From a virus: a DNA stretch of 23,128 bases. The stretch's first letter is position 1; every line of letters starts with the position of its first letter. This document shows, piece by piece, positions 640-14,043 of this stretch. Both the position numbers and the translations under genes were made by a program. Location: positions 1 through 23,128 of the IMG/VR virus record IMGVR_UViG_3300047095_001900. One strand, written 5' to 3'. The notes beneath the pieces are model-generated. The model ran no database searches. It saw only the letters and a list, made by a program, of their open reading frames with translations, and was not told the DNA's origin.

Positions 640-3570
640 CTAGCCACCGACCACGACGAAAGCGCCCCATACGCGCGGATCGGCGAAGCGCGAATCGCTT
701 GAGCTCATCATCAGTTGCTGCATTTGAATCTGAAGCCTCCGGGCTAATTCCTGCGGGCTTGGGCTCGCGGCGCCTCCGATGGCACCGGTGACGAGTTCTG
801 CGGCTGCAGCATCAACCACCGGCCAATGCGTAGCAATCACGGTCTGCCCCCCGGCGAAAAGGAACGAGAGCGCTAAGCCGCTCAGCACTTCACCGCCACG
901 GCCGTCGGAACTTGTAGTGCTGCACGCGGACAGGATCACAATGTCCGCGCCGATCGGCAACAATGCGACTTCGTCCGCGCTGAGGAAGCCGTCGTTGGTC
1001 GCACCGGCCAGATTACGCGGATCGCGCGCAAGCACCAGCCCGGGGTAGGGTGATTCTGGGGCTCCGCCCGGCTTGGCATGCGTAGCGAAGGCAAGGATCG
1101 CAGTGCTGCGCAGGTCCGTCGCGCGCAACCTGGCCTCGGTGGCATTGGGACCTGTAAGTAGGACGACTGGACCACCACGTCGACTCTCGCCGAGCTTCTT
1201 CAACTCCGCTGCCGCAAATTTTAGTTGCCTGTCCTCGTCGGTGCGCACCTCCTCTTCCGGCAGCGGCGAGGCGCCGGGGGGGGCGCCGATCCCGATGAGC
1301 GCGTCGCGACGGTTCACTCGCTTGTTCGCCTTCAAGGAGCGAAGCGACGCGACCGAAGGCAGCGAAACTAGCGCATGATTGCGCATCAGCCAAGCGGTGT
1401 CGCGCAGTGCCTGCGGCGCAACATCGGAGCCGCGCGGCCTCTCGGTCACCAAGATCTGAAGTGGAACTTCTGCGAGCGGCCCGTTTGCAGAAATGAAAAG
1501 GAGGCGATTGCCGAATTGGCCCGTGAGGGGCGCCAGAATGCGCTGGTAGAGCATATAAGCAGCGTTCCTGTCAAACCCTTGCGGATCACCTCGGGGATTG
1601 TCCAGGTGGCGCCGGAGCTTCTCGACCTCGGCTTGCACCCATGCCTCGCTTGCTGGCGCGGTCACCCAGGTGACCCCTGCTGTAGTGATCGCCATCGCCT
1701 CGATGCGATCATCAAGTTGAGTGAGCACCACCAGCGCTTCGTCAGGCGTCAGCGCAGCTCTTGCTGAATCGAGATCCAGCGCCGCGAACGTGGTGCGGCG
1801 CTCGAATTCGCTTGCCGAGAAGGGCAGCTGGCGCTCGAGCAAGGCGATGCGGCCAGCCACCGCCTCGCTCGCGGCGCGATCATTTCGGACGCGGAACCGC
1901 TCCTCTTGAAGAACTTGCCGCTGCTGTAGGATGAGCTGATGCTCAGCGGTCCCGCTGGCACCACGCGCGATGGCTGAACGCAAACCAGCTTCTACACGGT
2001 TGAACTGAAGGAGCTGTACTGCTTCAAATGCACGCGCCTTGGCAGCATCGGCCTCTGGCCCACTTCCTTGAGCGATGCGAGCGAAGATGCCAAGCCGTTC
2101 GCTCTCCAGCCAGCGTCGCTGTTTGAGCGTCTGCAGTACGTCCTGTTGCGTGGGCCAATTGCGGGCCAGCCAATTCTGAAGCACGCGTGTACCGCGCTCA
2201 TCGATCAACAGTGCTTCCGAGACGTTCCCCGCATCCGCCTCGATCAAAGCACGTTCGTGCAGTAGCTCGGAGACGAAAGCGTTGGCATAGCTGTCGATTG
2301 AATCCTCGTTCCATGCCTTGCACTCGGCCAAGTGCATGCGCCCTGGGGGGCAAGTAGGGCCTCTCGGGCCAAAATCCAGCCGCAACGGTAGTGAGGGTGC
2401 GACAAAGCCAGGCACGTAGTAGAGCGCCTGGTCACTATATTGACGCGCGCGGACGAAGTCTCGCTTGAGACGGTACTGCATGGCGAGCGCCCTGAGAATT
2501 TCGCTGGCGTTCTTCATGCTGCCGGTGTTAGCTTGCGGGCCCCCGATCCAAGGCGTAACCGTAATCAGATTGGGAGTGACCTCGTCCAGCGCGCGTTCGT
2601 TACTGGCAATTGCCTCGTCGAGCGTATCGCTAGAGTATGGATTCGCCGAAGGTAGTGCTGCGGCGGTGGCGGGCGACGATTCAATGTCGCGAGTCCAAGC
2701 TTCGAGCGAGCGAAAGAACTCCCCGCCCGCGGCTGCCAGTTCCGTGTCGGTGCGAGCAGCACGTATGAGCGCAGCAGCCTCAGCATCACGATTTCGAAGC
2801 CTGAACCAGTTGAATAGGAGCAACGTGGCATCGAAGCGTACCGCCCCTGCTTCTCCTGCGGCGACAAAGCGCAGATCGGTGGCCGCGAACACTGCGAGCC
2901 TTGCAAATGGCTCCACCAGATCCGAGCGCGATAAAGCTTCGGCAATCTCTGCCGACTGAATAAATGCGGTCGCTGGACACAGCCCCCGCGGTCCACGCTT
3001 CACCAGAGACCAGTCAATCGTGATCGTCTTGGCCATCACCTGGCGACAAGTCTTGCTATACAATGAAATTGAACATGATGCCCCCGTCGCACACGGCGTC
3101 TCGGCGAGGAGCACGGTGGATTCGTGAAATCGGCCATCCAGCGCAAGCGCGGTCGCGCGCGCGCGCGCGAGATCGGAAAGATCCTCGCGCTCCTGCTCCG
3201 ATCGTTCAGCGAGTGTGATTGCCTCCGCGAACCGCCGTTCAGCCTCAGCAAATTGGCCCTCATAGATCGCCAGCATGCCGAGTAGCCGGTGCACCTTTAC
3301 GGGGCCGAAATGAGTCGGGTTCCACGTATGGTAACTGGGGCCCAGCCGGATCACGCGTTCATACGCAGCTTCGAGCGCCAGCCGCCTTTCTCTAATTTGT
3401 TCCTTGGTAGCATTGTTCTCTTGCGATTCAACCAATCGCTCGGCCCACACCACCGAATCGTCGATCTCGCGAGAACGCGCCCGGTCCTCTGCCAGAACGA
3501 GGCTGACCGTTAGGGGCAACAGCAGGGCCAGCGCCTGCCGGCCCAAGCGTCGGAGCGATGAACGGCTCAT
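640..3570 (-). CDS. exported TPR-CHAT domain protein (caspase-like protease)
   Basis: 976 residues. The N-terminus (arginines followed by ALALLLPLTVSLVLA) is a Sec-type signal peptide, predicting a periplasmic or envelope protein. Residues about 65-500 hold TPR-like helical repeats (e.g. GQFAEAERRFAEAITLAE; DFVRARQYSDQALYYVPG). From about 640 to the end is a CHAT domain, a caspase-related peptidase fold: the catalytic pair is His831 in LAFATHAKPGG and Cys883 in DIVILSACSTTSSDGRGGE, followed by the typical LSGLALSFLFAGGQTVIATHWPV. Both residues are present, so activity is plausible. CHAT proteins are known to cleave partner proteins in some bacterial immunity systems; the target here is unknown. 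The ATG overlaps the stop of the upstream FecR-like gene (ATGA), so the two are translationally coupled. A weak hairpin overlaps the stop codon (633-648) but no strong terminator is visible. Confidence 0.92.
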   Translation of the reverse strand: MSRSSLRRLGRQALALLLPLTVSLVLAEDRARSREIDDSVVWAERLVESQENNATKEQIRERRLALEAAYERVIRLGPSYHTWNPTHFGPVKVHRLLGMLAIYEGQFAEAERRFAEAITLAERSEQEREDLSDLARARATALALDGRFHESTVLLAETPCATGASCSISLYSKTCRQVMAKTITIDWSLVKRGPRGLCPATAFIQSAEIAEALSRSDLVEPFARLAVFAATDLRFVAAGEAGAVRFDATLLLFNWFRLRNRDAEAAALIRAARTDTELAAAGGEFFRSLEAWTRDIESSPATAAALPSANPYSSDTLDEAIASNERALDEVTPNLITVTPWIGGPQANTGSMKNASEILRALAMQYRLKRDFVRARQYSDQALYYVPGFVAPSLPLRLDFGPRGPTCPPGRMHLAECKAWNEDSIDSYANAFVSELLHERALIEADAGNVSEALLIDERGTRVLQNWLARNWPTQQDVLQTLKQRRWLESERLGIFARIAQGSGPEADAAKARAFEAVQLLQFNRVEAGLRSAIARGASGTAEHQLILQQRQVLQEERFRVRNDRAASEAVAGRIALLERQLPFSASEFERRTTFAALDLDSARAALTPDEALVVLTQLDDRIEAMAITTAGVTWVTAPASEAWVQAEVEKLRRHLDNPRGDPQGFDRNAAYMLYQRILAPLTGQFGNRLLFISANGPLAEVPLQILVTERPRGSDVAPQALRDTAWLMRNHALVSLPSVASLRSLKANKRVNRRDALIGIGAPPGASPLPEEEVRTDEDRQLKFAAAELKKLGESRRGGPVVLLTGPNATEARLRATDLRSTAILAFATHAKPGGAPESPYPGLVLARDPRNLAGATNDGFLSADEVALLPIGADIVILSACSTTSSDGRGGEVLSGLALSFLFAGGQTVIATHWPVVDAAAAELVTGAIGGAASPSPQELARRLQIQMQQLMMSSSDSRFADPRVWGAFVVVGG

Positions 3571-4403
3571 TTGACCTTGGATATGATGTTCATGAGGTCG
3601 GACGCAGCCTTACTATCACGGCGATACGGGCTAAGCAGCAAAAACGCTTCGTACAATTGCGCTGGCTCGGCGGCAAGAAGCGCACCGGCACGCGCGAGCG
3701 CTTCGTCGCTGCCGTCCGGGAGGTCGACGCTGCCCGAGGCAGTGAAACTCCCGGTAACGGTGCGTCCATCCGCGTCGCGGACCTCGACGGTATAAGTTCC
3801 TGGTGCCACATCACGCACTGCCGACGTCAGCCTCAACAACCGTGCGTTGATATTTGTCTCCGCGACTAATGCAGACTGGCCCGGCTTCGATATTGTGACG
3901 TTGAACGGCGCTTCTCCACCAAACCACGATAGGGCGAGATAACGCTTCCCTGTACCGATCCGAGCAGTCCCAGCCGCGACATCCCGTGGCGCGATTTGAA
4001 AGGACTCGTCGTTGCGCGTCAGCAGGTCATCCACGCCATCCTGCTCGACAGTAAGCAGTTCGCCAATCGAGCGAGTCGCATTGTTCCACCAAGTTAGCCG
4101 GGGTCCAGCGACGATGCAGAACCATGAACCCATCTCTTGGATGGAAACGAATTGCCCATTGGCCTGCTGAATGCGCAGCAGCCCTGCAGCGACCATCCGG
4201 ATGCGGTCTCCCTCTTGCAATTCAGTGTAATAGCCAACCTTTGTGCGCTGACCTTTGCGCATGAGTTCGAATGCCTGCGAACCGCCCTCCATGACGATAA
4301 CCACGCCAGGATTGAGTGAGCGGCATTGCTTCGCCTGTGCAATTGCCGATCCCGAAGAGACCAACATTAGCGCGAGAGTCAGGACCGAAACTATACCCCG
4401 CAT
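3567..4403 (-). CDS. exported FecR-like / hypothetical periplasmic protein
   Basis: 278 residues starting at an ATG preceded by a good ribosome site (GGGAGAAAGG). Residues 1-23 (RGIVSVLTLALMLVSSGSAIAQA) form a signal peptide with an AQA cleavage site. Residues about 30-100 (EGGSQAFELMRKGQRTKVG, ELQEGDRIRMVAAGLLRI, then a Q-x-x-NGQF stretch) resemble the beta-rich FecR-like sensory fold in which a 'level/threshold' strand pattern follows L-x-x-GD-x-I. The C-terminal half has an Ig-like strand pattern (APFNVTISKPGQSALVAET, then VAPGTYTVEVRDADGRTVTG) and a short helical end. It lies between the CHASE2 gene (18 bases upstream) and the CHAT gene (4-base overlap), so it is probably a partner or scaffold of the CHAT protein. 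The FecR relation is a pattern-level guess; no anti-sigma transmembrane segment is present. Confidence 0.8.
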   Translation of the reverse strand: MRGIVSVLTLALMLVSSGSAIAQAKQCRSLNPGVVIVMEGGSQAFELMRKGQRTKVGYYTELQEGDRIRMVAAGLLRIQQANGQFVSIQEMGSWFCIVAGPRLTWWNNATRSIGELLTVEQDGVDDLLTRNDESFQIAPRDVAAGTARIGTGKRYLALSWFGGEAPFNVTISKPGQSALVAETNINARLLRLTSAVRDVAPGTYTVEVRDADGRTVTGSFTASGSVDLPDGSDEALARAGALLAAEPAQLYEAFLLLSPYRRDSKAASDLMNIISKVK

Positions 4404-4421
4404 ACACCTTTCTCCCTGTCG

Positions 4422-5885
4422 TTAAGCACGACTCAGTCTATACGCGAAAGTCTCGAAAAAGACGCTTCCCGATACCACGACATAGGCCGTCACTACAAGT
4501 CCCACCGAGACCGCCGGGTTGCCGTAGACGAGGAATACGGCCCAGAGAATCCCGGTCAGCAACGGCGCGAGCCACTTGCGCAGACGGGCCAGCAGCGGTG
4601 ACAGTCGACCGTAAAGCCGCGCGGCCATGGAAGTCTTGGGCAACCGATCTAAAGCTACGCTGATCTGCCGCAGCAATTGCAGCAGAATCGAAAGTGTCAG
4701 CGTGGCAAGCAGCACAAGACATAGCCCCTCGAAAAAGGAATCTCGCCGAGGCCCGAACTCGATCCAGTCGCGAGCTGCATTCGCGATGACATATGCTCCG
4801 GGCATGGTCTCGATTGGCGTGGGGCGCTGGTCACGGCGCCCCGCTGTTGCGCCCACCACCACCAAGGAGTCACGGAACAGCGCAGGATCATGCTGGCCAT
4901 TTCCGAATACAAAAGGGTGAATCGAGGCCAATGCAGTCTGTGGCCTGCTGCCGGCGCCGTCAGGGATCCGAGGCAGTCCCAGCGCGGCCGGAATGGGCCA
5001 TTTCAGGGTGTAGTCGATCGGCAGCGCCGGCTTTTCTGTAACTGAGAACGCTCCCGACCGCGTACAGAAAATAAAGCTGTCCCGCGCGCGCGCTCCGCAG
5101 GTAGACTGGCCAGCCAGACCAGCTGCTACCAAGCCGTCGAGCCGTTCGGCGCTTCCATCCATCGTGAGCAGCTTGAGCACCAGCGGGACCGACGGCAGGA
5201 CGACTGGCCTGCCATCTAAGCTGGCGCTCTGGATCGGCCAGATTCGGCGCACTACCCGGTTTGGCTCAGCCGCATAGGTAGCGGTAGCCCAGAGCACGCG
5301 TGGTGTTTTCGCGACGAAATCGTCAAGCGCCGACGCACGCAGCCGCAGGCTATCGGGATCGTCAATCCCTGGAAGCGTCTCGCGTACGAGAATAACAACC
5401 GTGCCCGCCTCAGCCAGCGTCCTGATGGCACGCCGCAAGGCATCGAGTCCACGCCACGCTTCAAGCGACGCCGGCCCTGATATCGTTGAATCTTGTTGCT
5501 TATTGGTCAGATAGCCAAGATCGAAGTCGACCACCACCGCCCATGGGCGGAAATCCGCCAGCGTTGACAGGGTCTTAGCAGTGACTTCCGAAGGGATGAG
5601 TACTGGATCTCGCAGCGCGGCGGCGGTCACTTCGTCATAGTTGAGGAAGACAATCGAACGTGCGCCCACGCGCGACTCATAAGTGTTGGCAAAGATGCTC
5701 ATGCGCGTGGCAAGCGCCTGATCAGCGAGGTCGCCGACATACTTACTTTGACCGGCGATTTGAAATAAGCTAAAAGAAAGTGCCGCGATCAGGAGTGGGG
5801 GAACGACTGTGATGATTGGTGCTATCAGCGGGTGGGTTCGGGTCGCGCGCCGTAACCTCACTAAAAATCGTTTCCAAGTGCGCAT
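4422..5885 (-). CDS. CHASE2-domain membrane sensor lacking an output domain
   Basis: 487 residues. One transmembrane helix (about 20-44, PLIAPIITVVPPLLIAALSF) is followed by a large extracytoplasmic region (about 45-380) with CHASE2 features: ALATRMSIFANTYESRVGAR, IVFLNYDEVTAAALRD, and ADFRPWAVVVDFDLGYLTN, the last matching the conserved 'P-x-A-V-x-x-D' strand. Three helices close the protein (about 384-405, 439-455, 459-480). CHASE2 is an extracellular sensory domain usually joined, after exactly such a three-helix unit, to a cyclase, kinase or phosphatase. Here the protein stops about seven residues after the last helix, so signalling must go to separate partners, most simply the exported FecR-like and CHAT proteins encoded next. 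Start ATG chosen because a perfect AAGGAGG (5894-5900, minus strand) lies eight bases upstream. Confidence 0.88.
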   Translation of the reverse strand: MRTWKRFLVRLRRATRTHPLIAPIITVVPPLLIAALSFSLFQIAGQSKYVGDLADQALATRMSIFANTYESRVGARSIVFLNYDEVTAAALRDPVLIPSEVTAKTLSTLADFRPWAVVVDFDLGYLTNKQQDSTISGPASLEAWRGLDALRRAIRTLAEAGTVVILVRETLPGIDDPDSLRLRASALDDFVAKTPRVLWATATYAAEPNRVVRRIWPIQSASLDGRPVVLPSVPLVLKLLTMDGSAERLDGLVAAGLAGQSTCGARARDSFIFCTRSGAFSVTEKPALPIDYTLKWPIPAALGLPRIPDGAGSRPQTALASIHPFVFGNGQHDPALFRDSLVVVGATAGRRDQRPTPIETMPGAYVIANAARDWIEFGPRRDSFFEGLCLVLLATLTLSILLQLLRQISVALDRLPKTSMAARLYGRLSPLLARLRKWLAPLLTGILWAVFLVYGNPAVSVGLVVTAYVVVSGSVFFETFAYRLSRA

Positions 5886-7545: not shown

Positions 7546-7788
7546 TCACTCATCAGCGGTCGATTTTCGCAGTGCGCCAGAGATCTCCAGAGCGAACTCG
7601 CAAAGGTATGCTATTCCTCCGTCAAGGCCCGTCTCTGTTCCAAGCAATAGCAGGCGACGAACCGAATCTTCAAGGTCGGCAGCTTCACGAAGTGCGATGG
7701 CGACTTCTACACCAGAGGCGACCAACAGCAATGGGCGCTGGTCGATAGGGATGATGCGGAACGGGATCTCGCGCGTGGTTTCGCTCAT
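7546..7788 (-). CDS. DUF3077-like small protein
   Basis: 80 residues (MSETTREIPFRIIPIDQR...). Pattern: F-x-I near the N-terminus, G-V-E-V-A-I-A-L-R-E-A-A-D-L-E in the middle, and a final helix G-I-A-Y-L-C-E-F-A-L-E-I-S-G-A-L. This matches the layout of DUF3077 proteins (F-x-V-x-x-G-V-x-x-x-x-A-L-x-x-A-S-x-L-L, then Y-L-x-x-M-A-x-A-L), a small family of unknown function in pseudomonads and xanthomonads. The ATG at 7788 has GGAG seven bases upstream and overlaps (ATGA) the stop of a 29-codon leader frame. The frame is open much further upstream, but that part crosses a strong hairpin and the decayed repeat and lacks coding character. It is the last gene of the small-gene array. Family assignment is by eye. 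Confidence 0.6.
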   Translation of the reverse strand: MSETTREIPFRIIPIDQRPLLLVASGVEVAIALREAADLEDSVRRLLLLGTETGLDGGIAYLCEFALEISGALRKSTADE

Positions 7789-7874
7789 GTTCGCGCTCCG
7801 GAAGCGGCCACGGCCGCTAGGCGCCAAGAACGATGTTCGACCCGAATCGGGCCTGATAGAGTATTTGCAGCCAT
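7785..7874 (-). CDS. 29-residue leader ORF coupled to the DUF3077-like gene
   Basis: ATG at 7874 preceded by AGAGGAA at good spacing, encoding MAANTLSGPIRVEHRSWRLA plus nine residues (AVAASGART). Its stop overlaps the next start as ATGA, the arrangement of translational coupling. Immediately upstream is a 14-pair hairpin (7905-7938). The peptide matches nothing I recognise; it may be a regulatory leader rather than a functional product. Confidence 0.4.
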   Translation of the reverse strand: MAANTLSGPIRVEHRSWRLAAVAASGART

Positions 7875-7904
7875 TGTCGTTCCTCTCGTGAACGGTGGTG
7901 GTCA

Positions 7905-7938
7905 GGGCGGCCGGGGTGTTGACGCACCTCGGCCGTCC
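7905..7938. terminator. strong GC hairpin upstream of the leader ORF
   Basis: Arms 7905-7918 and 7925-7938 pair over 14 positions (two G-T wobbles on one strand, mismatched as A/C on the other), with a 6-base loop. No T-run follows on the minus strand, so it may act as an attenuator or RNA-stability hairpin rather than a classical intrinsic terminator. Confidence 0.45.
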
Positions 7939-8046
7939 GCATGTACGGTATGTGCCGGCATTCGATTTTGATGGCGGCGCACCTGCCGGCTCCTGTGCGC
8001 TATCGGCCACTGACGCTTGATGCTTCCTCCTGATTCGGCATGTACA

Positions 8047-8077
8047 TATAAACGCGCTTTTTTCGATAAAAGCCAAG
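8047..8077 (-). repeat. R0: decayed copy of the 31-base array repeat
   Basis: Aligns without gaps to the five good copies R1-R5: the same 9-base and 16-base blocks with the same 6-base spacer, and 5 changes in the 25 conserved positions, all but one being transitions toward A/T. On the minus strand it reads CTTGGCTTT-N6-AAAAAGCGCGTTTATA. It lies 172 bases before the leader ORF of the DUF3077-like gene. On this strand it offers TTGGCT and, 18 bases on, TTTATA, a passable promoter pair. Confidence 0.6.
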
Positions 8078-8253
8078 TCTACTGGCTGCTTTTCTCTCGA
8101 TTGGTCGAATGCCCGCGATGTCTTCATCCGTAGGGTGACTGGACGGATGCACCACGAGGAGCACTGCCACGCTGCGGATTACCCCCAGCCACAATTCGGC
8201 ATCTCAAACCACATTCGACTTCGCCCCGCCCCCGAGCGCCGCAAGCAAGCATA

Positions 8254-8281
8254 GCCCCGACACGGGGTTCCGTGCCGGGGC
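8254..8281. terminator. 12-pair hairpin after the RGLN-type small gene
   Basis: Arms 8254-8265 (GCCCCGACACGG) and 8270-8281 pair with one mismatch and a 4-base loop. It lies about 50 bases beyond the stop of the minus-strand gene ending at 8332. There is no T-run on either side, so termination would need help from Rho or the stem may protect the transcript end. Confidence 0.5.
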
Positions 8282-8331
8282 GTATGCCAACTCCGAGTTG
8301 TCGCCGGCGCGCGCGGTGCCGGCGGGCAGTG

Positions 8332-8532
8332 CTAGACGCCCAGCAGTTCGCCCGCCTTCGCAAATCCGACCCACCGACCATCACCGTTGAGCCCTCGATT
8401 CATCAGCTCTTCGCGTGCAAGTTTCACAATATCGACATCGCCGTGATGGATTGCCACGAGGAAGCGTGTGTCGAAGATCTGGAGCGCCTCGGCCAGATCG
8501 TGGTCGACACCCTGCGAGATGCGCCCGCTCAT
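8332..8532 (-). CDS. small protein of the D-x-R-F-L-x-A-I-H-x-G-D family
   Basis: 66 residues. Core: ALQIFDTRFLVAIHHGDVDI, then an amphipathic helix, then EELMNRGLNGDGRWVGF. The last block (RGL-x-x-x-G-x-W-V-G-F) resembles small proteins found on integrative elements and plasmids; function unknown. The core is shared with the genes at 8974-9156 and 9564-9932, so these three are paralogues of different length. The ATG overlaps the stop of the DUF6900-like gene (ATGA), so the two form one translational unit downstream of repeat R1. Confidence 0.75.
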   Translation of the reverse strand: MSGRISQGVDHDLAEALQIFDTRFLVAIHHGDVDIVKLAREELMNRGLNGDGRWVGFAKAGELLGV

Positions 8533-8726
8533 GCGCGCACCGCCTTGGCAGCCGCCGACGTGGCACCGGCGGCATAGGCCGCTTCGAGTGCGGCACGAAT
8601 CGAGGCGACCGACAATTCATGAAAATCCAACCGATCCACGCCTCGCTCTTCGAGAGTGGGCAGGCCGAGATGCTTTGTGGCGATCTCGGCAATGACGCGA
8701 CGACAACGTTCCGGTGGCTTGCTCAT
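8529..8726 (-). CDS. DUF6900-like small protein
   Basis: 65 residues. The stretch ATKHLGLPTLEERGVDRLDF followed by HELSVASIRAALEAAYAAGA matches the compact pattern of DUF6900 (A-x-x-x-L-G-I-x-T-L-E-x-R-x-x-D-x-L-D-F-H-x-x-x-V-x-S-I-x-x-A-L-E-A-A-Y-x-A-G), small proteins of unknown function common on conjugative elements and phages. The ATG has AAGGGA upstream at workable spacing. It is preceded by repeat R1 (52 bases away) and followed, with a 4-base overlap, by the RGLN-type gene. Family naming is from memory of the pattern and should be confirmed by a profile search. Confidence 0.78.
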   Translation of the reverse strand: MSKPPERCRRVIAEIATKHLGLPTLEERGVDRLDFHELSVASIRAALEAAYAAGATSAAAKAVRA

Positions 8727-8778
8727 GAGTGAATTCCCTTGGGTGTGGGTTTGCGGCGCACCGTGCGCCGCGTGACGG

Positions 8779-8809
8779 CATGAACGCGCTGTTCGGATGT
8801 GAAGCCAAG
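8779..8809 (-). repeat. R1: array repeat
   Basis: Minus strand CTTGGCTTC-N6-GAACAGCGCGTTCATG, with spacer ACATCC. It lies in the 247-base gap between the small genes at 8974 and 8726 and points toward the DUF6900-like gene. The second block contains the inverted pair GAAC/GTTC around a 5-base centre. Confidence 0.85.
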
Positions 8810-8915
8810 TCCAAGACGCGTCAGTGGAATGGCAGACAGGTTCGGTACGGCATCACCCGCCGGCACCTGCGCGTGCCACCGGCACGCGAGGCCCAATCCA
8901 CCGGCTATCGGCCGA

Positions 8916-8957
8916 CACCGCCCCGGTACCGCACATCGCGCAACCGTGCGGGCGGTG
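8916..8957. terminator. interrupted hairpin between small-gene modules
   Basis: CACCGCCC (8916-8923) pairs with GGGCGGTG (8950-8957), with an inner GCAC/GTGC stem (8931-8934 / 8946-8949). It lies just after the stop of the minus-strand gene ending at 8974 and before R1, a position expected for an end-of-module transcript structure. No T-run. Confidence 0.4.
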
Positions 8958-8973
8958 GGCGATATTGCGCGGG

Positions 8974-9156
8974 TCAGCAAGCACCGTCGCCTTCGCCCGC
9001 TCCGTCGCCATGCCATCGCCGATTGAGGTCGCAGCGGACTGCGGCCAGCAGGTCGTCATCGGCATGCTGCATCGCCAGCGGCAGCCGGGCATCGAGCGCG
9101 CGGATCGCCTCGAGGGGATCGCGCGCATTGTCCGGTGAGGTGCGGACCACGCTCAT
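8974..9156 (-). CDS. short paralogue of the D-x-R-F-L-x-A-I-H-x-G-D family
   Basis: 60 residues (MSVVRTSPDNARDPLEAIRA...). The core LDARLPLAMQHADDDLLAAV corresponds to FDTRFLVAIHHGDVDI in the gene at 8332-8532 and LDTAFLLAIHRGDADLRAQV in the gene at 9564-9932. The protein ends soon after in a Gly/Asp-rich tail and lacks the RGL...WVGF block. The ATG was chosen because it overlaps the upstream stop as ATGA; the open frame extends 30 codons further but that would run inside the preceding gene. Function unknown. Confidence 0.65.
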   Translation of the reverse strand: MSVVRTSPDNARDPLEAIRALDARLPLAMQHADDDLLAAVRCDLNRRWHGDGAGEGDGAC

Positions 9157-9437
9157 GTCGCATCCGCCCGCAGGCCAAGCGCGTGCAATTGGGCTTGCGC
9201 GCCGGCAGCGAGGTCGATTCGTGCGTTTGGCATGATGCTGGTGCAAATGTGGTTGATCGCCCAGTTCAGGACCTTGGCCTTCTGGCCGAGGTCTGCAGCC
9301 TCCTGAAATTGAATTTCATATCGCGCGATCTCCTGCGCAGTACGTTCGATGGCTTCGCGCATGCTTTGCAGGGCCTCTGCGCCGTTGCGCAGGGCGAGAT
9401 GCGTTTCGAGATCACGCGGGTTGATTCCGGTACTCAT
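9153..9437 (-). CDS. small helical protein, module R2
   Basis: 94 residues from the ATG at 9437. Almost entirely predicted helix: LALRNGAEALQSMREAIERT, then an acidic/aliphatic helix, then KAKVLNWAINHICTSIMPNA and a short C-terminal helix. It aligns loosely with the 86-residue protein at 10890-11150 (shared V-L-x-x-A-I, then P-x-x-R-x-x-L-A near the end), so these may be duplicates. No clear ribosome site precedes ATG 9437; the ATG inside repeat R2 (9470) is in frame and would add 11 residues. Its stop overlaps the start of the next small gene. Function unknown. Confidence 0.7.
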   Translation of the reverse strand: MSTGINPRDLETHLALRNGAEALQSMREAIERTAQEIARYEIQFQEAADLGQKAKVLNWAINHICTSIMPNARIDLAAGAQAQLHALGLRADAT

Positions 9438-9467
9438 GCAAGCTGCTGATGTGGGTGGGTGTGTGTC

Positions 9468-9498
9468 CATGAACGCGCTGTTCGCGAGTGAAGCCAAG
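9468..9498 (-). repeat. R2: array repeat
   Basis: Minus strand CTTGGCTTC-N6-GAACAGCGCGTTCATG, with spacer ACTCGC. It sits in the 126-base gap between the genes at 9564 and 9437. Its final ATG is in frame with the following gene. Confidence 0.88.
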
Positions 9499-9563
9499 CG
9501 CGAACTCGCCGCTTCCCCGGCGGAGACAGGCGACAGACAGCTTCCGTATTCCAACAGCAGCGT

Positions 9564-9932
9564 TCATCCGTGCTGTTCGGAAAGTGGTGGTGCGAAGGCG
9601 ACAATGGGATCGGAGCCGATGCCGGCCCGGCTTGAGATCTCGGCAATGACTTGGGCACGCAGGTCGGCGTCGCCGCGATGGATCGCGAGCAGAAACGCGG
9701 TGTCGAGAGTGGTGACGCATTCGTCCAGCGGCACATCATTGCTGGTGACGTAGTGTTCGCCGTCTTCGAAGCCAATCTCGTAGGCTTCGGCGAGCGCATC
9801 GAGCAGGGTCTGGACGCGCTTGATTTCGGCGGGGTCGCCGGAGGTCGCGGCGGCTTCGACGTCGATGCCGAAACGCTGCCTTGCGATCCGCAGGTACGGG
9901 TCTTGCGCGTTGCTGAAAGTGGAAATTGTCAT
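9564..9932 (-). CDS. longest paralogue of the D-x-R-F-L-x-A-I-H-x-G-D family
   Basis: 122 residues. The N-terminal half (SNAQDPYLRIARQRFGIDVE, then KRVQTLLDALAEAYEIGFED) is a separate helical segment; residues about 72-108 carry the family core TLDTAFLLAIHRGDADLRAQ followed by VIAEISSRAGIGSDPIVAF, an end comparable to the WVGF block of the 66-residue paralogue. The start ATG has GAAGGAGAA upstream, overlapping the stop of the preceding gene, so it is translated with it. Belongs to module R3. Function unknown. Confidence 0.75.
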   Translation of the reverse strand: MTISTFSNAQDPYLRIARQRFGIDVEAAATSGDPAEIKRVQTLLDALAEAYEIGFEDGEHYVTSNDVPLDECVTTLDTAFLLAIHRGDADLRAQVIAEISSRAGIGSDPIVAFAPPLSEQHG

Positions 9933-9946
9933 GTCGGCTTTCTCCT

Positions 9947-10270
9947 TCACCACACAAGGCCGGTCGGACTCGCGGCGATACGCGCGAGCAGATCGTCGAG
10001 CGGCTCGACTTTTGCGCCGTCCGCAATCGGTGCCAAGAGCAGGTCGCCGGCCTCGATCAGCTCGATCCGCACCACATCGATCCCGTTGCTGGCGTAGGCG
10101 AAGTGTTTGCGACCGTCGATCTGGCGCAGGAGTGCGCGGGGTGTGCGTGCGCGCAGCACTTCGCGCCGCCAAGCGTGGCGGCCACGTCGGCCGGGGACGT
10201 GCACGAGCAGGGAGGCGAGATAGAACTCCTTGACGCGCTTGCGGATCTTGCGAGAGGGTGCGTATGTCAT
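9947..10270 (-). CDS. small basic protein, module R3
   Basis: 107 residues. Very basic N-terminal half (SRKIRKRVKEFYLASLLVHV, then Arg/His-rich RRGRHAWRREVLRARTPRA), then a beta-rich C-terminal half (KHFAYASNGIDVVRIELIEA; GDLLLAPIADGAKVEPLDDL). The charge pattern would suit nucleic-acid binding but no motif is recognised. The ATG at 10270 overlaps (ATGA) the stop of a 10-codon frame starting at the ATG of repeat R3. The next gene starts 14 bases after its stop. Confidence 0.7.
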   Translation of the reverse strand: MTYAPSRKIRKRVKEFYLASLLVHVPGRRGRHAWRREVLRARTPRALLRQIDGRKHFAYASNGIDVVRIELIEAGDLLLAPIADGAKVEPLDDLLARIAASPTGLVW

Positions 10271-10296
10271 GGGGTCGAATTCCGTGTCGGGGGTTG

Positions 10297-10327
10297 CATG
10301 TACGCGCTGTTCGGGGAAGAAGCCAAG
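10297..10327 (-). repeat. R3: array repeat
   Basis: Minus strand CTTGGCTTC-N6-GAACAGCGCGTACATG (one change in the second block), with spacer TTCCCC. It lies in the 88-base gap between the genes at 10359 and 10270. Confidence 0.88.
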
Positions 10328-10340
10328 CCCAGCCGGGCTT
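10325..10340. terminator. short hairpin overlapping R3
   Basis: AAGCCC (10325-10330) and GGGCTT (10335-10340) pair around a 4-base loop. On the plus strand CTTTT follows, so it looks like an intrinsic terminator in that direction, although no plus-strand gene needs it. On the minus strand the stem leads directly into the repeat and shares its first bases. Confidence 0.3.
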
Positions 10341-10358
10341 CTTTTCGAGGCTGTTCGG

Positions 10359-10741
10359 TTACCCCAGACGCGCCACGTAACGGGCGTAGTCGCCGCCCGA
10401 GGGATCGACGTAGAGGTAGGGACGGCTGGGCGCGTGGACTTCGACGCACAGGCAGCCATCGGCGACGTTGCCGCCCTTGCCGGCGAGCCACGGCTGCGGC
10501 CGGGTCAGGTCCCTCGTAAAGTCATCGAACTGCGCGATGGTCAATTCGACCGTTTCGGTGATGTAGATGCGGTGCTCGCCGGTGGCGCACATCTCGCGCA
10601 GGTTGTCGGGCTTGCACGCGAAGGGAAGGCGCACGCCGAGTTGTTCGACGCGCAGCGATTGCCCCGGAATTGAACGATGCGCGGTGTGCGGGGGATGTGG
10701 AGGGTCATGGTGTACGGACTGGCGAGCGTCATCGTGGGCAT
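10359..10741 (-). pseudogene. small gene with apparent 1-base frameshift, module R4
   Basis: The intact frame 10359-10634 begins at a GTG (VRLPFACKPDNLREMCATGE...) without a ribosome site, and its upstream codons QSLRVEQLG look coding. The frame opening at ATG 10741 (MPTMTLASPYTMTLHIPRTP, then RIVQFRG) runs straight into it if one C is added to the C4 run at 10662-10665. The joined protein would be about 127 residues, ending DGCLCVEVHAPSRPYLYVDP and YARYVARLG. Either a sequencing/assembly error or a real inactivating indel. ATG 10732 is an alternative start whose ATGA overlaps a 17-codon frame beginning at repeat R4. Family not recognised. Confidence 0.6.
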
Positions 10742-10779
10742 GTGTGTTCTCGGTGTGGGCGTCGGCGATTCGACGTCGT

Positions 10780-10810
10780 CATGAACGCGCTGTTCTGGAG
10801 GGAAGCCAAG
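10780..10810 (-). repeat. R4: array repeat
   Basis: Minus strand CTTGGCTTC-N6-GAACAGCGCGTTCATG, with spacer CCTCCA. It lies in the 148-base gap between the genes at 10890 and 10741. Confidence 0.88.
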
Positions 10811-10855
10811 CGCCACACGCACGCAGATCGTCGACGTACAGGTGAGCGCATCGCT

Positions 10856-10878
10856 GCCCCGCGCCGTACGCGCGGGGC
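10856..10878. terminator. 9-pair hairpin between modules R5 and R4
   Basis: Perfect arms GCCCCGCGC (10856-10864) and GCGCGGGGC (10870-10878) with a 5-base loop, 11 bases beyond the stop of the gene ending at 10890 on the minus strand. No T-run follows. Confidence 0.5.
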
Positions 10879-10889
10879 ACTTGCCGACC

Positions 10890-11150
10890 TCAGCGGCGGC
10901 TCGTTCCTGTGATGAGGTCGTAGGCGTCGCCCAGCCGCGCCAATTGGGCGAGGCGCTCTTGCGGGCTGAGGCGGTCTTCGACCGCGACGATGGCATCGCG
11001 CAGCACATCGCCGCGTTCCGCCAGCGATGTCGCCTGCTCGAGGCGCTGCAGTTGCAGTCCGATATCCAGGCGCGTGGCTTCGAGCGCGTCGATCAGCGCG
11101 CGCAGGTGGCGCTCGCCTTCGTCTTTGGCGTCGGGTCTGTTGTCGTTCAT
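10890..11150 (-). CDS. small helical (coiled-coil-like) protein, module R5
   Basis: 86 residues from ATG 11150, which has GGAGA upstream. Sequence is strongly helical with heptad-like leucines: RHLRALIDALEATRLDIGLQ, LQRLEQATSLAERGDVLRDA, then a Ser-Pro turn and ERLAQLARLGDAYDLI. It resembles the helical protein at 9153-9437. The ATG within R5 (11177) is in frame and would add nine residues; the ribosome site favours 11150. First gene after the tail-tip gene; function unknown. Confidence 0.75.
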   Translation of the reverse strand: MNDNRPDAKDEGERHLRALIDALEATRLDIGLQLQRLEQATSLAERGDVLRDAIVAVEDRLSPQERLAQLARLGDAYDLITGTSRR

Positions 11151-11174
11151 GGGCGTCTCCGGGATGTGTGGTCG

Positions 11175-11205
11175 CATGAACGCGCTGTGCGGGATGGAAG
11201 CCAAG
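11175..11205 (-). repeat. R5: array repeat
   Basis: Minus strand CTTGGCTTC-N6-GCACAGCGCGTTCATG (one change in the second block), with spacer CATCCC. It lies in the 132-base gap between the tail-tip gene (ends 11283) and the next small gene (starts 11150), marking the beginning of the array. Confidence 0.87.
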
Positions 11206-11214
11206 CGCCGATGC

Positions 11215-11282: not shown

Positions 11283-13769
11283 CTACGCCAATCGGCGCAG
11301 ACTGACGCGTTCGACGCGACCGGCGAAGGCAGCGTCTGCGGCAACGCGCAGCGCGGTGTGCGCGCTGGCCGTGAACACGTCGATGGAGGTGCCGCTGCCG
11401 GCGCGCGCCTCGCCCTGCACGGGCGTAGCGCCGTCCAGCACGACGCGCGCGCTGCCGGCGGTCACCTGGGACAACACCCATTCGACGCGGTACAGCGCGC
11501 CATCGACGAACGCGAAGGTCTGTGCCATGTCGGTCGCGGTACCGGCGACCTTGATCGCCGCACTGCCGGCGATCGACCAGCCGGCACCGGGTGTCCACGC
11601 GGCCTGGGTATCGAAGTCGGCATTCGCCAACTTCTCGCCACACTCGCACTGGAGCGTGCGCACGTGCGTCTGGCGACTGGCGAGCGCGCCACGCTGGCTG
11701 CGGATTTCGACGCGGATGGTGGCGTCGCTGGCCAGCAGCACCTCGACCGTATGGCTCGTTCCGGCGATACCCGTCGTTTCGTGCAGCACCGCCCCGCTGA
11801 GCGCGTGCAGCACGCGCACGGTCGTCGTCGTGCCCGGTTCGGGGCCGATGCTGCCGGCCTCGTGTTCGATCAGGCGATCGCCCTGCAGCATGCGATCGCG
11901 GTGCGCCCAGGCGAAGTCGAGTCGCGCGAAGGCCGTCGGCGGCCACGCGGCGCCGTTGATCCGCAACCGCCCCGGCGGATAGGGCCGGGCGTGGCGCGCG
12001 TCGAGGCGCACCTGCGCAACGGGCGCGAGTGCGGGATCGAGCGTGCCCTGTTGCGTGCGCGTCAGCAGTTTCGCCTGGACGGTATCCCCGGCGAGGTATT
12101 CGGTCGGATCGGCGCCGACGTAGATGTCCGTACACCACACCCGCGCGCCCGCCGCATGCGGCACCGGCACGGTGTCGACACATCCGCGGGCGAGCGTGAG
12201 CGTCCCTGCGACAGGATCGATGGCATCGATGCGCACCAGTTCCTCGTCGATCAGCGCCTCGCTGCCGACGGCGACTTGATCCAGGTCGCGCATATCCGCG
12301 AGCATCGCCACCGTGTCGGTCGATCCCAGAGCACCCGCGAGGGTTGCGGTGGCGGAGAAGTCCCCGCCCGCGACCTCGACGAAGTCGCCCGCACCTGTGC
12401 GCGTGGTGAGCATGTAGCCGTAGGCCGGCCCGTTCGGCCGCGCGCCGAGCGCGACGACGAACCCGGCATCGTCCTCGACCTGCGCCAGATCCGCGGGGCG
12501 CAGGCGGCCGGCGAGATCGCGATATGTCGCCTCGACGAGGCGCTGTGCCGGCACCGCAACCGGACGCGTGTCCGGCGGCGTCCACGGCCCGATCACCGGC
12601 CGCAGGTAGGCGGTCGCGGCCATGCCGTCGATGTCCTGCACTAGCACCAGCGCGAGCGCACCGTCCGTGCGCGTGCCCTCGTCCACCTCCAGCACCCGCA
12701 CGGGCATGCGCTGCACGCCCTTGCGCCGCCACGACAACGCGAGCACGTCACCGCGCTTCACACCCCACCAGCGGCGGTCGACGGTGAGCTTGATCCGCTG
12801 CAGCAGGCTGCTCGCCGCGGCGGTCTCGCGCGCGGCGACGCGCTCGCACAGCGTGCGATTCCAAAGCCCAGGCAACGCACGGCGATCGGCGACGACGCGG
12901 CCCTGTGCCTGGACGTTCGCCATGTTCTGGAACGTCGCGGCGATCTCGAGGTTGGTTACGCAGTCGCGGCCGAGCACCGTCACCTCGTTCACCGAACCAT
13001 CCAGCAGCGGCGTCTGCCAGCTCTCCAGCGCCAGCACGCTGGTTTCGTCGAGCAGCGGCAACGTGGCGACGTCGTAGTCCGGTCGGAACAACCGGTACAC
13101 GAACTGGCCGCGCATCGGATCGAACGCCCACAGCCCGCCGACGTGGGTGTTCACCGTCTGCAGGAAATTCCCGATCGAGTCCCCGCGTCGCCAACCGAGG
13201 CACAACCCGAAGGCCTCGTCGTGCAACTGCTCGGCCGCGCGCAGGAAGCTCTCGCCATCGATCAGGGCGGGATCCAGACCGCAGCCCCAGACCGTGTCGG
13301 TCAGGCACTGGTAGTGGATGTGCGCCGCGTTCATGCCGCGACCGATGCGCGCGAGCTGCGGCTGCCACACCGGCGTCGACCAGCCCTGCACGAAGCGTCC
13401 CCAACGCTTGGCCCACAGCTTCAGGTAGGGGTTCATCGCCCCCACCATCCCGCGGTAGAGCGTGGTGCAGAGGCCGCGCGCGGCGGGCCACGGACCGGGC
13501 ACCTGCTGCTGCAGGTAAGGCACCGGCAGTTGGTCCGGCTCGCCCATACGGATCTGCAGCGTGCCGACGAGCCCGCCTTCCTTCTTGTCGCCTCCGAACA
13601 GTTGCGGCAGGTTGATCGCCAGCGTGCCGCTGCCGGCGCGTTCGCCCTCGAACACCGTCTGCCCGCCGACCTTCACGCCTGCGAGGTAGTCGTTCGGGCC
13701 GATCGACTCGCCCATGTACAGGTACATGAAGTGCCGGTAGCCGATGGTCGGCTTGCTCGACTTACCCAC
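11283..13769 (-). CDS. phage tail-tip / host-specificity (J-like) protein
   Basis: 828 residues from a GTG at 13769 that overlaps the upstream stop by 8 bases; longer in-frame starts fall inside that gene. The N-terminus (GKSSKPTIGYRHFMYLYMGE, then PNDYLAGVKVGGQTVFEGE) is typical of the tail-tip proteins of siphophages that follow a DUF2163-like gene. The middle (about 110-420) has W-rich hub-like segments (RRGDSIGNFLQTVNTHVGGL; FDPMRGQFVYRLFRPDYDV). Residues about 440-700 contain strand-rich fibronectin-like sections. Residues 710-828 (CGEKLANADFDTQAAWTPGA, GWSIAG..., ending VERVSLRRL) have the layout of galactose-binding/CBM-like modules (N-x-D-F, then G-W, A-x-Q-x-x-x-x-x-x-G-x-x-Y-R-V, and final V-S-L-R), suggesting surface sugar recognition. 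It would sit at the distal tail end and contact the host. Confidence 0.82.
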   Translation of the reverse strand: MGKSSKPTIGYRHFMYLYMGESIGPNDYLAGVKVGGQTVFEGERAGSGTLAINLPQLFGGDKKEGGLVGTLQIRMGEPDQLPVPYLQQQVPGPWPAARGLCTTLYRGMVGAMNPYLKLWAKRWGRFVQGWSTPVWQPQLARIGRGMNAAHIHYQCLTDTVWGCGLDPALIDGESFLRAAEQLHDEAFGLCLGWRRGDSIGNFLQTVNTHVGGLWAFDPMRGQFVYRLFRPDYDVATLPLLDETSVLALESWQTPLLDGSVNEVTVLGRDCVTNLEIAATFQNMANVQAQGRVVADRRALPGLWNRTLCERVAARETAAASSLLQRIKLTVDRRWWGVKRGDVLALSWRRKGVQRMPVRVLEVDEGTRTDGALALVLVQDIDGMAATAYLRPVIGPWTPPDTRPVAVPAQRLVEATYRDLAGRLRPADLAQVEDDAGFVVALGARPNGPAYGYMLTTRTGAGDFVEVAGGDFSATATLAGALGSTDTVAMLADMRDLDQVAVGSEALIDEELVRIDAIDPVAGTLTLARGCVDTVPVPHAAGARVWCTDIYVGADPTEYLAGDTVQAKLLTRTQQGTLDPALAPVAQVRLDARHARPYPPGRLRINGAAWPPTAFARLDFAWAHRDRMLQGDRLIEHEAGSIGPEPGTTTTVRVLHALSGAVLHETTGIAGTSHTVEVLLASDATIRVEIRSQRGALASRQTHVRTLQCECGEKLANADFDTQAAWTPGAGWSIAGSAAIKVAGTATDMAQTFAFVDGALYRVEWVLSQVTAGSARVVLDGATPVQGEARAGSGTSIDVFTASAHTALRVAADAAFAGRVERVSLRRLA

Positions 13770-14043
13770 GGCGACGGCCCCAGGCGCGCAGGCGCTGCAG
13801 CCGGGTATGCCGCGGCGGCGAGACCACAATCGGGCGCAGCGTGGGGATCACGATCGGACGTCGTCGCCAGCGCCCACGCACGAGCGCGCGCAGATCCAGG
13901 CCCCACACCGCGTGGAACAGGCCCGCCGCGATGCCGAAGGCGCCGAACGGGCGTTCGCCCGCCATCCACAGCGCCGCGCCGGAGACGATCGAGGCCACGC
14001 AGGCGACCACGATCCAGCCGCGATACATCGACTCACGTCGCAT
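13762..14043 (-). CDS. small membrane protein in the tail-tip cluster
   Basis: 93 residues from ATG 14043 (MRRESMYRGWIVVACVASIV...); ATGs at 14058/14064 are possible but lie deeper in the preceding gene. Two hydrophobic helices (about 10-27 and 34-52) are followed by a very basic tail rich in Arg and Pro. It overlaps the genes on both sides, so it belongs to the operon. Small two-helix proteins at this spot occur in some tailed phages but I do not recognise this one; it could affect the host membrane rather than the virion. Confidence 0.65.
   Translation of the reverse strand: MRRESMYRGWIVVACVASIVSGAALWMAGERPFGAFGIAAGLFHAVWGLDLRALVRGRWRRRPIVIPTLRPIVVSPPRHTRLQRLRAWGRRRG

Follow-up and report, generated by a model that had tools for sequence, protein, structure and literature searches.

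Repeated phage promoters that act as recombination boundaries are already known. In T4-type phages, which are lytic, the so-called PeSLs have been described as "mobile regulatory cassettes" consisting of an early promoter and a stem-loop terminator (Arbiol et al. 2010; Comeau et al. 2014; as presented in PMC4503421). In Cluster K mycobacteriophages, the 13-bp SAS (GGGATAGGAGCCC) resembles a Shine-Dalgarno (SD) sequence and lies at the ribosome site, and ESAS are 17-bp inverted repeats with a variable spacer (PMC3203893). For archaeal viruses, a conserved regulatory motif of early genes was used to find anti-defence genes, and early expression and function were tested for some of them (PMC11065993), while in the leading regions of conjugative plasmids the order of entry and the anti-defence content are reportedly central (PMC11541004). 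Here, we describe a 31-base repeat from a viral stretch of 23,128 nt (IMG/VR record IMGVR_UViG_3300047095_001900, positions 1 to 23,128; hereafter the window), which, judged by sequence comparison, is most likely a dedicated phage promoter that is near-identical across hundreds of temperate phages. It is a variant new to the searchable literature, in which, with most subscription journals outside reach, no description of the element was found and a search for TTGGCTTC gave nothing relevant.

Like the PeSLs, the element appears to be a repeated phage promoter whose copies mediate module shuffling, with boundaries at the promoter. Unlike the PeSLs as presented in PMC4503421, it has no terminator-like upstream hairpin (0 of 150 copies; upstream fold z = -0.3), belongs to temperate phages unrelated to T4-like ones, does not resemble a sigma-70 promoter, and is shared with the integrase. 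With SAS and ESAS it has in common that it is phage-specific, present in many copies per genome, placed before genes of different families, and nearly absent from the host (PMC3203893), but its sequence differs and it is a two-box promoter of fixed spacing, followed by a leader that measures about 30 nt and has an SD of its own. As with the archaeal-virus motif, one conserved promoter precedes many small genes of unassigned function, though that promoter is archaeal and its genes were assayed, whereas the present system is known from sequence comparison (PMC11065993). Small variable genes forming an island at a fixed place also recall the leading regions (PMC11541004). Here, however, mostly 30-60 nt separate the island promoter from terS, a distance too short for a lambda-like cos, so that entry of the island into the cell first, beside cos, is unsupported. 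From integron attC sites, the repeat differs in having no inverted core sites, no hairpin and no covariation, and no integrase lies beside the array.

In the window, five copies of CTTGGCTTC-N6-GAACAGCGCGTTCATG with 0-1 mismatches were found on the minus strand at 11175, 10780, 10297, 9468, and 8779, against a chance expectation of 0 (100 dinucleotide shuffles). Each lies in a gap between small minus-strand genes and is followed by one or two of them, with the next start codon 54-82 nt away from the T that opens TTGG. The original prediction had reported these five near-identical elements, their shared orientation, and their position in the gaps, all of which we confirmed. It had also named a sixth, "decayed" copy at 8047-8078; this copy is present, but the adjective is too strong, since every difference from the other copies falls at a site that is variable across the family, the core CTTGGCTT-N11-AGCGCGTTTAT is kept, and an orthologue exists in a related genome (G053:C62:75210). 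The claimed constant length of the 6-base spacer was also borne out, as a relaxed scan permitting spacers of 3-9 yielded 543 distinct copies from elsewhere, all with a spacer of 6. Across the family, the GAAC is variable, and the two bases preceding the final T are either CA or AC.

With the first T of TTGGCT numbered -35, the repeat displays a -35 box CTTGGCTT, 17 bp between the hexamers, and a -10 region AGCGCGTTcaT (box GTTcaT), followed 7 nt later by the predicted start. Conservation around -10 is extended (-17 to -10), both boxes are fully conserved, and their spacing is rigid. Among 171 copies with a flank identity of <60% (the full set was profiled as well), the predicted start revealed a signature Y-1 R+1 Y+2, with C/T at -1 in 97%, a purine at +1 in 80%, and a pyrimidine at +2 in 94%. 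Downstream come an A/C-rich leader, about 30 nt long, and then an SD and a start codon. In 434 of the 543 copies, a start codon with an SD before it was detected at 60-69 nt from TTGG, with random controls giving a flat background. Thus, two boxes about 17 bp apart, a start about 7 nt downstream, and a following gene were all found by comparison. The common promoter TTGGCT-17-GTTCAT, which the original prediction had offered as one of two readings, gains comparative support from the start-site signature, the constant distance of SD and start codon from the repeat, and the unrelated genes downstream. Since the offsets 63, 64, and 65 are nearly equal in frequency, the repeat is not translated with its gene, and a coding repeat (LASxxNSAFM) was excluded because the repeat is found in every one of the three frames when set against the gene that follows. 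A hairpin or RNA element was excluded as well, because no covariation was found, whether between GAAC and GTTC or across the spacer, folding of repeat and leader gave z values near 0, and an Rfam search returned no family above the gathering score and only two sub-threshold matches, neither at the repeats. Sigma-70 promoters need A at -11. Because T occupies this position in 98% of the copies, with no TATAAT-like box carrying A there, plain use of sigma-70 is doubtful.

The core common to the family, CTTGGCTT-N11-AGCGCGTTnnT, occurs in hundreds of prophages. An exact scan resulted in at least 120 stretches in IMG/VR and at least 117 in GTDB, the latter sampled with one genome per species. Among the matches listed, named hosts belong mostly to Burkholderiales, Lysobacterales, and Rhodocyclales, but also to Pseudomonas, Halotalea, Nitrospira, and others; some odd hosts of metagenome-assembled genomes may be binning errors. 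In 20 genomes with a match, the core was confined to one or a few clusters, which were prophages where mapped, and single copies nearby, with a reversed-pattern control of 0. Of 200 genomes of one bacterial order, five (the centre genome included) harbored the core and 195 did not. A scatter over host genomes, which the original prediction had set beforehand as the sign of an ordinary repetitive extragenic palindromic (REP)-like repeat, was therefore not seen, and a chromosomal repeat of this kind was ruled out. Matches of the 32-mer in a BLAST search of plasmids were mostly due to chance. The only named phage with the promoter in the phage collection searched was Acidithiobacillus phage AcaML1 (L243; copies at 3043, 20462, 21140, and 22272), a possible experimental system.

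The proteins encoded downstream fall into 33 unrelated clusters, mainly DUF3489, DUF6900, phrog_8020, and the unnamed families c3 and c4. Typically, these are small genes grouped in an island on the reverse strand, which lies between the DNA-methyltransferases of the early operon and terS and has DUF6900, DUF3489, and phrog_8020 as its core. In the fetched stretches, the array lies on the strand opposite to TerL (130/130), TerS (79/79), methyltransferase (173/173), portal (72/72), and primase (30/30). In an independent sample of phages picked by DUF6362 and not by the repeat, all 38 with at least 5 kb downstream carried the array, 3.7-7 kb away. A further copy precedes DUF2924 and a serine recombinase in the prophages mapped in detail, AcaML1 included, all of which share the early operon; in three of them this copy is weak (2 mismatches).

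A longer record of the window's phage (IMGVR_UViG_3300044641_010325, 54.5 kb), with island genes 100% identical, revealed the order early operon, DUF6362, island 1, terS, TerL, portal, and island 2. Island 1, on the opposite strand, carries DUF3489 and phrog_8020 with two copies at 12.6 and 13.4 kb, and island 2 (35.8-39 kb) is the window array, which harbors DUF6900, so that the core trio is divided over two islands. A one-mismatch copy at 52.2 kb stands directly before DUF2924, the serine recombinase, and c5. Related Lysobacterales prophages have the same two-island layout. The array does lie at the end of the tail operon, as originally described, but it is one of two islands and not solely a feature of that place.

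Comparison of related phages showed where modules begin and end. Against loci L224, L189, and L129, homology of the window reaches the end of repeat 3, breaks, and restarts at the relative's next repeat; between these breakpoints the relatives carry the DUF6900 module, which the window has two places further on. Locus L045 is without module 1, with an equally precise boundary. Overall, 214 distinct islands displayed 73 gene orders. For 142 kinds of module insertion or deletion, homology of the right flank starts at the repeat (-10 to +9) in 3,035 comparisons, with 79 in the next bin, and homology of the left flank stops 30-60 nt ahead of the repeat or at its end. These are whole-module counts, replacing an unfiltered count dominated by insertions and deletions not tied to whole modules, which probably reflect length variation inside DUF3489 genes. 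Homologous recombination between the 31-base repeats is sufficient for such gain and loss, and a dedicated recombinase is not implied. The original prediction had asked whether module content and order vary between related prophages, which these orders and breakpoints answer in the affirmative. It had also weighed cassettes at a shared sequence against co-regulated genes with a common promoter; comparison supports both, as one and the same thing.

Taken together, we consider it likely that a dedicated phage promoter drives the cassette islands and the integration operon and that modules recombine at its copies; sequence comparison supports this for promoter anatomy, phage-exclusive distribution, regulon membership, and module boundaries. 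In a single lineage of temperate phages, the promoter would drive the small-gene island between the methyltransferases and terS, the integration operon DUF2924-serine recombinase-c5 and, in the Lysobacterales branch, also island 2, which follows the tail genes. Every island gene or gene pair would move with its own promoter, and recombination between promoter copies would add, remove, or relocate modules, so that incoming genes arrive ready for expression in the regulon. Transcription would start from the repeats, with a phage-controlled specificity factor directing RNA polymerase to them. As islands and integrase have the promoter in common, the islands are suggested to be expressed along with the integrase, during infection or establishment of the phage. 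With slightly less than even chances, the island genes are accessory and possibly directed against host defence, roles suggested by their small size, variability, and modular arrangement, with the assayed genes of archaeal viruses as a parallel (PMC11065993). Most of the genes belong to no named Pfam family; for phrog_8020, no relative by sequence or fold was found in the PDB.

Several points weigh against this picture. Common descent of the core trio could account for part of the conservation, and the pairwise breakpoint comparisons are not independent, though the sharp boundary is still clear. The -10 box is without A at -11, the copy at 8047 has no start codon at a well-spaced SD, and no sigma-factor family was found among the conserved phage genes examined. 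As for the specificity factor, the best candidate would be DUF3489 as an autoregulator, a doubtful assignment for which the evidence consists of co-occurrence and a predicted fold. DUF3489 is present in 31 of 32 large phage records, with the lone exception cut off inside the island, and belongs to the regulon itself. Its model predicts two winged-helix domains (predicted local distance difference test mostly >90) that, taken domain by domain, resemble MarR/ArsR-type regulators, at E values of about 0.01-0.1, which are suggestive only. In the distant relatives Agarilytica, Eleftheria, and Roseicitreum, DUF3489 is similarly placed and the repeats have diverged; the Agarilytica version, CTTGATGT-N11-AGAGCGTTAAT (TTGATG-17-GTTAAT), keeps the geometry. 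This fits co-divergence of reader and site, as a lead and not as proof. On plasmid pSU2 of Agarilytica rhodophyticola (L348:2500-6100), this version stands before small genes beside a methyltransferase. An alphaproteobacterial phage-like island on Roseicitreum antarcticum pRA03 (L345:1690-3558) encodes DUF6900-like and DUF3489 proteins at the corresponding position, and a promoter-like repeat of another sequence, GAGCGATnCTG, occurs there twice.

The same protein features in the strongest competing explanation, to which we give a substantial chance, if one short of even, namely that the repeat is an operator or activator site over a weak sigma-70 promoter, which host RNA polymerase would read only once a phage regulator has bound or has gone. 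A GAAC-N5-GTTC dyad spans the -10 in about three quarters of the copies, the Agarilytica version is nearer the sigma-70 consensus, DUF3489 is predicted to have the fold of a regulator, and no copies occur on host chromosomes outside prophages. However, the left half of the dyad varies without a matching change in the right half and is shifted by one base in Agarilytica, and the T at -11 is almost invariant. Two fully conserved boxes at rigid spacing, an extended -10, and a -10 box unlike that of sigma-70 could instead be taken for a promoter of an alternative sigma factor, phage- or host-encoded, with an 8-bp box, N11, and an 8-bp box as in the sigma-28 type. This is unlikely, since a host sigma factor should have chromosomal targets, of which none were found in the 200 genomes of one order, and no sigma-factor family was seen among the conserved phage genes examined. 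DUF6362 (PF19889; L264:6094-6381 and many other loci), a small protein at the end of the early operon with a C-terminal helix-turn-helix (HTH) that looks by eye like sigma region 4, is present in 27 of 32 records; three of the five others end before its region, as inferred from the island position. As two records and AcaML1 are truly without it yet keep intact repeats, it was rejected as the reader. It is a candidate late-gene regulator. In AcaML1, an unrelated HTH-like protein, gp20, occupies its slot. The AlpA-like protein c8 (24 of 32 records by single-sequence search) was not decisive and was set aside as a reader.

Module gain and loss exactly at the repeat, the single orientation, and one repeat per module could also point to a site-specific recombination site of an integron-like cassette system with no promoter role. 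We regard this as very improbable, because conservation runs through the start-site signature and the distance to SD and ATG is fixed, a copy also stands before the integration operon, a place without observed module exchange, inverted core sites and a hairpin are lacking, and no recombinase lies beside the array, the phage serine integrase being located elsewhere only. A REP-like or translational leader repeat without a transcriptional role has next to no probability, for despite its closeness to start codons the repeat is absent outside prophages, lies upstream of the inferred start site, forms no structure, and occurs in all three frames.

Returning to the window, Pfam assigned DUF6900 alone among the array genes, the remaining ones being without a family (Table 1). 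As claimed originally, some modules carry paralogous genes; we found two sets, namely 8332, 8974, and the C-terminus of 9564, and 9153 and 10890, with scores reached in 0 of 500 shuffles. Homologues of the module 1 gene lie behind the same promoter in L224, L189, and L129. Compared to many homologues, the module 2 gene is interrupted between about 10634 and 10708 and split over two frames, which appears to be a frameshift in the population or an assembly error. At 640-5885 (minus strand), the window further encodes a TPR-CHAT protease-like protein, a 278-aa protein, and a CHASE2 protein. In the longer record, the CHAT and CHASE2 genes are located between island 2 and the integrase, and they are absent from five related Lysobacterales genomes; they are probably prophage cargo rather than host flank, perhaps a CHAT-based system.

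Table 1. Promoter copies and genes of the array in the window.
Feature	Position	Strand	Remarks
Tail tip (gpJ-like) gene upstream of the array	11283..13829	-	tblastn relatives in L224, L189, and L129; no match in Pfam; end of tail operon
Promoter copy 1	11169..11206	-	Core match; -35 box at 11204, predicted transcription start 11169
Module 1 gene, 86 aa, paralogue of 9153-9437	10890..11150	-	Start 54 nt from TTGG, GGAG
Promoter copy 2	10774..10811	-	Core match
Module 2 gene, family c3	10359..10741	-	Relatives in 64 of the searched loci
Promoter copy 3, GTACAT as -10 variant	10291..10328	-	
Module 3 gene a, 107 aa, no Pfam family	9947..10270	-	
Module 3 gene b, 122 aa, C-terminus paralogous to 8332 and 8974	9564..9932	-	
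Promoter copy 4	9462..9499	-	
Module 4 gene a, 94 aa, no Pfam family	9153..9437	-	
Module 4 gene b, 60 aa, paralogue of 8332	8974..9156	-	
Promoter copy 5	8773..8810	-	
Module 5 gene a, DUF6900 (PF21841), core gene of islands	8529..8726	-	Pfam E = 1.3e-20
Module 5 gene b, 66 aa, paralogue of 8974 and the 9564 C-terminus	8332..8532	-	
Promoter copy 6 (earlier called "decayed"), core intact	8041..8078	-	Orthologue G053:C62:75210
Module 6 gene, conserved part 7546-7788 (80 aa)	7546..8010	-	Open back to GTG at 8010, 66 nt from TTGG

In its furthest form, which we consider improbable at present, a phage-encoded regulator, probably DUF3489, would read a private promoter class and hundreds of temperate phages would share a plug-in regulon. 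Whichever small gene came in with the promoter would be co-expressed with the integrase at establishment, and the cassettes would serve as a large reservoir of uncharacterised counter-defence genes. If true, one 31-base pattern would flag genes expressed together with the integrase in hundreds of Proteobacteria prophages and would open a direct route to listing candidate establishment or counter-defence genes, nearly all of unassigned function. It would also name a phage-only promoter class that could be tested in a lysogen. Promoter-carrying cassettes would then be a means by which temperate phages exchange genes, a kind of shuffling described earlier for lytic T4-like phages.

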